Positions 42,601-46,967 of a stretch of 64,000 nt of DNA are shown here, one piece after another. Origin of the DNA: Branchiostoma floridae (Eukaryota; Chordata; Leptocardii; Amphioxiformes; Branchiostomatidae); contig NC_049996.1 of NCBI RefSeq assembly GCF_000003815.2, forward strand, positions 7,325,332 through 7,389,331, written 5' to 3'. The notes beneath the pieces were generated by a model. The model had not been told where the DNA came from. It saw nothing but the letters and a program-made list of their open reading frames with translations, and did not search any database. Position numbers and translations under genes: made by a program. Within the stretch, counting starts at the first letter, position 1; the number at the start of each line of letters is the position of its first letter.

Positions 42601-45600
42601 GACAGGAGGAGGAACAGGACAACCCGGCGCGGCTGTTCCTGGTGTCGAACGCGACCGGTCGTGTTGTGGTTGACGAGATCAGCGACTTCACGCAGGACGA
42701 CCTTGAGGAGGATGACGTGATGATACTGGACACCTGGGACCAGGTGTTCGTCTGGATCGGCGCTGACGCTAACGTCACGGAGAAACAGGAGTCCCTACGT
42801 ATCACCAAGGTGGGGGAAAATCAAGTTTAAGTTTACTGTGATTCTTGATGTGTTCTTCACGTTTTCTCAATTTTTATGTTAAAGACAACCAAAGCAATGT
42901 TAGCCCAAGTCAGGGCTGTAGAACTTTAATATAACATCAAAGGCAATATTTTGGGCACTTCTGTACGTAATAAGATGATTGAACTCTATTCCATTCCATA
43001 CCAACATTCAAGGAGCAAATATTTGATGCTGTAGTGGGGTGAGGACGAAGTGAAGGATAATTTTTGTGGGTTACATTTTTTGAATCCTAGCGCAGCTTGT
43101 TTCTGCACCAATTTTAACCGCTCAAAGTATGAATTAAATAATCAGATGTAAATTTGGCAATACAGTGCAGTAGATAACAGTTTCATACAGATTGCCTTAT
43201 CTAGGTTATTTCCACTTTTAACGTTATAATATTGCTTAGGTTGCCTTTAACCTTTTTGCCACAAAATTGTCACTCACTGAATTTTCATGATTGCTTTTAT
43301 GTGAATATTGCAGAGTGGCATATTTGGGGCAGACTGTTGTTATAGGATACTTTTTAATTGTTGTGTTTTGAATTCTTTTAGGAATATCTGGACACAGATC
43401 CCAGTGGCAGAGACCCTGACACGCCCATCATCAAAGTCAAAATGGGCTTCGAACCCCCGACCTTTACTGGCTGGTTTCTGGCTTGGGATCCCTTCAAGTG
43501 GAGTGTACGTATATGTAGAATACAGTTTTGTTCTATCATTGTAGAGAGCAGGAAGAAACAGTTACGAAGAATTCAGTAACGTACAGATCTTTAAATCAAG
43601 CAGAAATCCTTTTTTTCTTCTTTTTTTTGTAAAATTTCTTTTTTGATTCAAATTTTTAATTTTTTCTGTGGAAATGTCCTGTCATTTGTTATGCAAATAT
43701 CAAGTGTTCTCCTGCTAAATCTGTTACAGGAGGGAAAGACATATGACCAACTAAAGGCAGAGTTCGGAGACGCCAGTGCTGTTGTGGACGTCACTACTGT
43801 AAGTATTACTTGAGACACGAAACTTCCTGACCATAACCTCTGTAAAGTAAACCTGAAGTCATTTTACCCAAAACAAGCTCTCTTCAGAAAGACTTTTTTA
43901 AAATTGACTTTCAGGCTTGTAGTAAAGACACATATCTAGTTGAAGTTCAAAGCTGTAGCTATAGGCTGTTCAGTTCCCTGTCACACATTTTGGACCTTCC
44001 CATGACTTTCCTCCTGACCAATCCTCATCCAAGGTCAGTGCTGGGTTGGGAGTAGCCTGTAATCCTTCCTATTCTAGCTACAGTTTGTTCATCTGATTGC
44101 AACCAAGCAGACTTTATCAACTTTGATTTTTCAAAATGTCTTATCAGTTCAGTCACAAATGACAGTTAAAGTACGCAACCTTGGCAACCAACTTCAAACC
44201 ACAGATACCTTACTCACGACTCATTCCCAACCATGGTGTGGAGAAGGTCAGGAGGTCATGGTTGGCTGTGTGTGACGGGCTGTAGTGGGTTATTTCTAGG
44301 TTAGCTCCTTTCTGTAGTGAGATTCGACCTTCGGTTCACCTTGTTGCACGTTTCCTGTCCATCAGCTGATCACACAGAGTATGGCAAAATCATCGATTGA
44401 CGGAAAATCTCCAAACAAAGGCGGCAGCACACTTCAGGCGGGGGAACCAGTGAGGGTATGCACAACTGAACAGAAATCTCTCCTCGCCCTCACGGCACTA
44501 CAGTGTAACCGTCGTTTTCTCTTCAGACTAACGTGTTCCTCCTGTTTAGGATGTCAATATTGTAGGTCTGTCCTTGTTTCACCCTGTCTGCTGCGCTGGC
44601 CATATCTTCAGAACGTCATCAAAACCAGTTGCATCTTCTACAAAGTCCTTTATTTGAAGTCCTATCAAGTTTTAAAACCTCCACACACAGTTGGGTTAAT
44701 AGGGGCAGTGCCCATCTCCAAATCTGTAGCCCTTGGGCCACACAGTGCCTGGCTACAGTAGCGGAAGTCGGTTATAGTGGTACACAGCCATGTAGGATGT
44801 GTATTGTGAAATGTGTTTTGCAATGAATGCTGGGAAGAGTGCAATGCCTCCTCTGTGCTATACATTTAACTCACATTATGTTAGATGGGAGTATCAGAAA
44901 TACAAAATAAAACCTTTGCTAGCCATGAAGATATATTAACAGTAAATTTTCAGCTGGCATTCACTTGCTAGGTTGTTTTGTTAACGTGTCTAATTGTAAA
45001 AGAACACTGCCTGTGAACTACACATTTTGTAATTGTTAATCCCTATACTCAAGGCATAATGTCAAAGAATCTTACAGTCGTATTTATCTTTTCTAACCCA
45101 GGTAGGTACTGAAATACAATACAATCACTAATCTTCCTATAGCTCAGACTGGAACAATTTCTGAAAAATCGAGATTTACCCTAAACTGATGAGTCACCAC
45201 AATCATTGCTTTGTTCTGAGCACCCTACTTTCAATCCAATCTTCGTTTTCATGCTTCAATCTATTCCTTGTGTGATTCTCCAGTAATTCTAGTCTTTCAA
45301 TGTGTTACAATCTCAATAAACTACTTCTACTTAAACTAGTACCTTTAAGAAAGACTTCCAGGTAAAACTTCAGAAAAGGTATGGTTATGTAGTAGTGATT
45401 ATTTATGCCAACTCTGAGGTACAAGTCACACCCCCTTTCCACTAGAAGCTGGGAGCAACGGCAACCAAAAATTTGACAGATCCCTCAACAAATTTCATAG
45501 ATAAAGAACAAATTCTTTTACATTCATTGTGTTTTAACTTTTTAATCACACTTAAACACTGCATCATATTGTAGAAATACGAGGGGCGAGTAAGAACAGA

Positions 45601-46967: not shown

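Follow-up and report, generated by a model that had tools for sequence, protein, structure and literature searches.

The kind of TRIM that carries a tRNA-type promoter in its LTRs is already published as Helenus, described in 2024 (PMC10886601), with hosts among fishes, a coelacanth, bivalves, wasps, nemerteans, a brachiopod and a ctenophore. The fishes and the coelacanth are the Chordata of its Table 1, from which cephalochordates are absent, and the text of the paper makes no mention of Branchiostoma, amphioxus or lancelet (PMC10886601). A Pol III promoter inside the LTR is also found in Cassandra, a plant TRIM with 5S rRNA in its LTR and a short R of 18 bp between the Pol III start and the terminator (cited in PMC10886601), and a promoter fragment from a partial 5S is found in Ajax, a nemertean TRIM of 421–434 bp with 5-bp duplications and a tRNA-Leu primer. 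The literature found on Helenus/TRIMp3 comprised that paper and a meeting report only, no title among the matches listed for amphioxus TRIM or LTR literature concerned such an element, and the words TRIM, SINE and tRNA are absent from the text of a paper on amphioxus transposable elements (PMC5802833). The original prediction, made from the sequence of the locus described here, had named Cassandra as its sole parallel; the novelty that this implied is not upheld, given the publication of Helenus.

The window, that is, the whole stretch of 64,000 nucleotides analysed, corresponds to C18:7325332-7389331 of a lancelet genome assembly of 513,431,437 bases in 431 contigs. Alignment of the paired repeats placed in it a 456-bp TRIM at 46025-45570 on the minus strand. 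Every feature listed in the original prediction was located where it had been placed, although the strand had been left unstated. The 5′ LTR (45850..46025, minus strand), of 176 bp and with the ends TGTA...TACA, differs from the 3′ LTR (45570..45745, minus strand, 176 bp) at 6/176 positions with no gaps, just as predicted; five of the six differences are transitions, and three (positions 117, 130 and 138) lie in a CpG/TpG or CpG/CpA context. The internal region between them (45746..45849, minus strand) is non-coding and, at 104 bp, was read as too short to encode mobility proteins. It holds a primer-binding site (PBS) for tRNA-Glu (45831..45848, minus strand; TGGTTCCCACGCCGGCCC), whose first letters, TGG, follow the 5′ LTR after a gap of one base, and a 17-nt polypurine tract (45749..45765, minus strand; GAAAAGAAAAGGGGGAG), which is separated from the 3′ LTR by three bases (TAG); both had been predicted and were retained. 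The order of LTR, PBS, internal part, polypurine tract and LTR is thus canonical and all on one strand. The predicted 4-bp flanking duplication proved to be ATAT, at 46026..46029 upstream in the orientation of the element and at 45566..45569 downstream, while an identical 4-mer at the same spacing occurred at 312/63,530 window positions (chance 0.5%). The LTR divergence is 3.4%, from which we give no insertion date because lancelets are highly heterozygous, as stated in the part of a source available to us (PMC12373286).

The 456-bp element had at least 40 matches in the host genome with 90–100% identity (the best 40 of 1,273 first-look candidates), all of which were extracted with 100-bp flanks; since 40 of the 1,273 candidates were scored, the copy counts are lower bounds. 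Thirty-four of the scored copies span the whole 456 bp, and identical 4-bp flanks were present in 32/34, with no flank match of 5 or 6 bp in any of the 34. Sixteen full-length insertions, the window copy included, are independent and show 16 different 4-bp duplications, and the other 16, with the duplication TTCC, have common flanks belonging to a larger carrier repeat. At that same place inside the larger repeat lie 18 of the 40 scored copies, the 16 with TTCC and two imperfect ones. Two full-length copies have no perfect duplication: L023 (CAAG/CAAC) and L041, which is in the carrier and has one base extra. With the LTR as query, at least 40 matches were obtained (the best 40 of 1,087 candidates), including 13 LTR places without a listed full partner LTR: seven solo LTRs, three truncated or rearranged copies (L051, L052 and L061) and three chimeras (L053, L055 and L060). 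Six of the solo LTRs are independent, each with its own 4-bp duplication (L049 CACT, L050 GAAG, L054 GTGA, L056 TAGC, L058 GAGG and L059 TTGT), while the seventh, L057, with TTCC, sits in the carrier repeat.

These counts bear on whether the locus might instead consist of two tRNA-headed SINEs joined as a dimer, or be a tandem duplication. Such a structure would account for the tRNA-type boxes described below, and an unrelated SINE-like repeat with such boxes exists elsewhere in the window, but we give this reading practically no weight, because full copies and solo LTRs show 4-bp duplications genome-wide. The outcome named in the original prediction as speaking against an LTR element, unpaired SINE-tailed units with neither solo LTRs nor duplications, was not seen, and the genome search that it had proposed did yield copies with the LTR-PBS-internal-PPT-LTR order, solo LTRs and 4-bp duplications. 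Classification as a tRNA-derived SINE, with a single tRNA head and a LINE-type tail, was likewise rejected given the LTR, PBS and polypurine tract anatomy and the solo LTRs. Patterns derived from the element had no matches in the viral and prokaryotic contig sets.

The carrier repeat itself is about 3.7 kb long and contains an older TRIM copy whose LTRs are 83% alike; it was found at L062 (1757-5505, G000:C9) and also at L063, L064 and L065. These four compared copies are about 98–99% identical, the TRIM having been multiplied by its carrier, and only two open frames of at least 90 codons overlap the repeat, one of them across the TRIM.

Boxes A and B were identified by consensus score in each LTR, as predicted. 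In the 5′ LTR, box A (TGGTGTTGTGG, 10/11) lies at LTR 58-68 (45958..45968, minus strand) and box B (GGTTCAAATCC, 10/11) at LTR 112-122 (45904..45914, minus strand); in the 3′ LTR, box A (10/11) is at 45678..45688 and box B (GGTTCGAATCC, 11/11) at 45624..45634, both on the minus strand. The box A score is 10/12 on the 12-base consensus used first, and 10/11 on an 11-base consensus picked afterwards. When pairs were defined post hoc as both boxes at 10/11 or better and 25–75 nt apart, the window contained three, two of them in this TRIM, and 20 shuffles of one strand contained none. At default settings, ARAGORN found a weak tRNA-Thr(TGT) in one of the LTRs, the 5′ one (45892..45977, minus strand), and nothing in the 3′ LTR, for which relaxed settings gave a weak tRNA-Ser unlike the call in the 5′ LTR. 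No tRNA reached the Rfam gathering score in the window; when the threshold was relaxed, tmRNA, which belongs to the tRNA clan, matched the T-arm stretch in each LTR, with 15.1 and 14.7 bits against a gathering score of 47. A functional tRNA gene was rejected, since the acceptor stem in the ARAGORN drawing has several G.T pairs and one G.G. Judged from its sequence, the segment is a putative tRNA-derived promoter region rather than a tRNA gene, and the label ‘tRNA-shaped’ used in the original prediction is somewhat overstated: the boxes are there in both LTRs, but the cloverleaf is weak, and the tRNA-finder scan that had been suggested succeeded weakly in one LTR and not, at default, in the other.

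The likeness to Helenus, as judged from published descriptions, extends over most of the anatomy. Like Helenus, the lancelet element has boxes A and B of tRNA origin in each LTR, a polypurine tract, a PBS that pairs with the 3′ end of a tRNA and has no relation to the tRNA-like segment of the LTR, 4-bp duplications as in the animal members, a length of 456 bp within the reported 311–1263 bp and under about 1000 bp with no mobility proteins, and dispersed copies and solo LTRs across its genome, for which our counts are lower bounds. Most Helenus members have a box A of TRGCY...YGG and a box B of GGTTC. The window element and the rows like it differ in having TGGTG...TGG, while a second lancelet subfamily fits with TGGCC...CGG, and GGTTC and YGG are present. 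In contrast, the promoter of Cassandra is of 5S type and its host a plant, and membership was rejected because no 5S was found at the Rfam gathering score or among the six relaxed-threshold matches listed. Ajax is similar in that it, too, is an animal TRIM and its LTR contains part of a Pol III promoter, but was rejected for its 5S-derived promoter, 5-bp duplications and tRNA-Leu primer.

The LTR carries a single run of four T, at LTR 55-58, whose last T is the first base of box A (45968..45971 in the 5′ LTR and 45688..45691 in the 3′ LTR, minus strand), and which is a candidate Pol III terminator. We aligned 38 LTR rows from 37 loci, the window LTR being entered twice. Box B was present in 37/38 rows and box A, at 10/11 or 11/11, in 37/38; 28 rows carry exactly TGGTGTTGTGG (10/11), and the eight rows of the second subfamily have another box A, TGGCCGAACGG (11/11), at the same place. 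TTTT was found in 33/38 rows, the five without it all belonging to the second subfamily, so that the terminator model is not valid for all copies. Mean pairwise difference was 0.014 for box B, 0.013 for TTTT and 0.194 for box A, this last value being high because the two subfamilies have different box A sequences; across the LTR it was 0.086 for positions 1-37, 0.175 for 38-63, 0.040 for 69-111 and 0.030 for 123-164. Column diversity was equal to or below that of box B in 26/154 windows, and conservation did not single out the promoter boxes. The conservation of box B agrees with use as a promoter and is no proof of it.

An ordinary Pol II-driven TRIM, whose tRNA-like boxes would be the relic of an old SINE insertion and no longer a promoter, gains from the imperfect box A of the main subfamily and the weak cloverleaf, from the unexceptional column diversity of box B and from the five rows without TTTT. 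We nonetheless regard it as quite improbable: AATAAA/ATTAAA and TATA(A/T)A are absent from the 456 bp, leaving no poly(A) or TATA-like signal there, and the two subfamilies differ at box A and yet both fit its consensus.

Transcription by Pol III begins about 12–20 nt upstream of box A and terminates at a run of four T, rules that predict an R of about 13–21 nt. A hairpin stretch at 45963..45992 (minus strand), which overlaps the start of box A and may correspond to this R region, folds at −12.5 kcal/mol (z −2.88), with 2/200 shuffles folding equally well; for two cuts of the stretch the values were 5/200 and 2/200, and the stretch differs between the LTR subfamilies. Exactly one TTTT, starting at 38-58, occurred in 1.9% of 5,000 shuffled 280-bp units, a framing chosen post hoc. 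If R is a short stretch from the Pol III start to the terminator, this would be a further likeness to Cassandra; a publication on Cassandra promoters contained nothing on terminators.

In our model, Pol III would be recruited by boxes A and B of the 5′ LTR, start roughly 12–20 nt upstream of box A, read the internal part and stop at the TTTT of the 3′ LTR, producing a transcript of about 295 nt whose two ends share a short repeat, R. Minus-strand DNA would then be primed by tRNA-Glu at the PBS, R would permit strand transfer, the polypurine tract would prime plus-strand DNA, and an autonomous LTR element, probably of the Ty3/Gypsy type, would supply reverse transcriptase and integrase, with the 4-bp duplication as the result; mobilisation by Gypsy-type elements is a trait of Helenus. 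In some relatives, plus-strand strong-stop DNA would have run into the attached tRNA, giving LTR-tRNA chimeras. A difficulty for Pol III transcription is that the polymerase must pass TTTT once near its start. With this life cycle included, we are highly confident that the locus is a Helenus-type TRIM with a predicted Pol III promoter and belongs to a multi-copy family in the lancelet genome. Unless Repbase already has it, the element adds a cephalochordate to the published hosts of tRNA-promoter TRIMs.

The original prediction had also suggested matching the PBS to host tRNA 3′ ends, and the PBS fits host tRNA-Glu. Pairing was examined with the 3′ end of mammalian tRNA-Glu-TTC as given in the available parts of two sources (PMC10219402, PMC7555719), and the host tRNA-Glu(CTC) genes have the same 3′ end. 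Against this common form, the first 15 nt of the PBS make 14 Watson-Crick pairs and one G.U, and the next three are mismatched; the variant form in an apparent tRNA-Glu gene, L095, fits all 15 nt exactly. tRNA-Glu genes with GGCGTGGGAA were assessed from 3′-end pattern matches and inspected loci. The complement of the PBS has no 8-mer in common with the 5′ LTR. For Helenus, a tRNA-Glu primer was named for bivalves and not for hymenopterans or vertebrates (PMC10886601).

In the three chimeras found with the LTR query (L053, L055 and L060), the place of the PBS after the 5′ LTR is occupied by a near-complete antisense tRNA-Glu(CTC) with CCA. An exact 23-nt tRNA-Glu 3′-end pattern had 55 matches in the genome, compared with none for the reversed control, and a genomic CCA was present at 36/55 and absent at 19/55. 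A downstream T-run is usual for Pol III genes; TTTT within 25 nt was found at 0/36 CCA-bearing and at 17/19 CCA-less matches. On the element strand, 32/36 CCA loci read CA, one base and then TGG, that is, an LTR-type end in the register of a PBS. The junction pattern tRNA-CCA-N-TG occurred at 36 places and at none in the reversed control, 32 of them, by reading, among the 36 CCA loci. The captured tRNA is 26–72 nt long without CCA, reaching 72 nt in 10/36, and the sequences that follow it are all different, which indicates 36 separate events or at least separate breakpoints. As the pattern requires 23 nt of tRNA, the frequency of the usual 18-nt stop is not readable from it.

At 24/36 CCA loci, a BLAST match to the LTR of this TRIM family stops no more than 25 nt from this LTR-type end. 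The other 12, among them L066, L068, L084 and L104, have tRNA-Glu with CCA beside non-family sequence, several with similar TTTCAN ends, so that these are probably LTR elements of other kinds that use the same primer, the helper perhaps among them.

Some LTR retrotransposons target tRNA genes, as the titles of two papers indicate (PMC5006619, PMC5911963), and the chimeras might accordingly be insertions of the element beside tRNA-Glu genes, a choice of target as for Ty3-type elements, with no primer captured. We consider this very unlikely and rejected it as the source of the chimeras: all 36 have CCA, which defines the class, and lack the T-run of the CCA-less matches, 32 keep the PBS register, the length of the tRNA varies widely, and at L067 the 4-bp duplication is located beyond the tRNA. 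The captured tRNAs identify tRNA-Glu as the primer of this TRIM family, and the CCA loci look like the products of plus-strand strong-stop DNA that would have copied the primer beyond its usual stop.

The LTR start was placeable in 15/36 chimeras, and a 4-bp duplication was present in 7/15. It lies beyond the tRNA in L067 (the same place as L055), L080, L082, L102 and L120, and beyond a downstream LTR in L070 (L060) and L085 (L053). Because 19 offsets after the tRNA were permitted in this test, the duplications of L080 and L102 are weak alone; in L082 and L120, LTR-end sequence precedes the duplication. In at least nine chimeras (L069, L072, L074, L082, L085, L086, L105, L108 and L120), the tRNA was read as running directly into element sequence, the parts joined to it being the LTR start, the LTR end, the box B region, and U5 or the internal part. 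L067 has a complete LTR with its U3, which agrees better with strong-stop DNA of the plus strand than with that of the minus strand.

Plus-strand strong-stop DNA normally ends at m1A58 of the primer and, with unmodified tRNA, extends to the tRNA 5′ end, and full-length primer copies cannot act as active templates, according to the accessible part of a retroviral review (PMC13191261). The lancelet chimeras are what such over-extension would leave. They resemble the products of HIV-1 assays in which unmodified tRNA-Lys3 is copied past m1A58 (PMC13191261, in part), but would differ in being inherited genomic insertions of a retrotransposon with a tRNA-Glu primer. We think it likely that these loci are a fossil record of primer capture, in which reverse transcription, at 36/55 matches, passed A58 into the tRNA (10/36 to its 5′ end), in this TRIM family and in other LTR elements with the same primer, and the product was either integrated as it was, with the duplication beyond the tRNA (L067), or, after a template switch into the LTR, PBS or internal part, as a rearranged element. 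If so, strong-stop DNA would be capable of integration, and the CCA-bearing tRNA-Glu loci of this genome would mostly be by-products of retrotransposons. The captured primers are the more unusual part of the family: the identity of the primer tRNA can be read from them directly in genomic DNA, as can the points at which plus-strand synthesis stopped, and they let one follow in a natural genome what becomes of over-extended strong-stop DNA, a step otherwise examined in retroviral assays. Captured primer tRNAs were not noticed in the main text of the Helenus paper (PMC10886601), and no title among the matches listed in the open-licence literature reported such cases, which is not proof of absence.

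In the window, the TRIM is antisense to a gene of the gelsolin/villin family, in what appears to be one of its introns. Three of eight stretches tested gave gelsolin repeats (36370-36645, 36888-37151 and 42603-42830), the last matching gelsolin residues 613-673, and the reading frame after the TRIM presumably resembles a villin headpiece linker. An imperfect 30-nt inverted repeat (83%) surrounds the TRIM (45417-45446 and 46083-46111); without the TRIM, its arms span about 235 bp, so the TRIM may have inserted into an older MITE-like element. A tandem array of ~95-bp units at 37323-38652, apparently also in an intron of this gene, contains seven mir-2060 precursors, which are all seven Rfam matches of the window; mir-2060 has been reported in Branchiostoma belcheri as bbe-miR-2060c (PMC5650284, in the part available). 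An interspersed repeat at 60500-60999 (minus strand) has tRNA-type boxes A and B (60877 and 60821) and diverged copies at 41560-41870 and 34954-35174 that are 68–82% identical, and has the appearance of an old SINE with a tRNA head, without relation to the LTR; it was rejected as the donor of the tRNA-like part, as it matches the LTR over 8–13 nt only. Positions 22135-22581 are a run of N, an assembly gap or a withheld stretch, and a 488-codon open frame of ankyrin repeats occupies 4225-5691 on the plus strand (Pfam Ank_2, E 1.2e-119).
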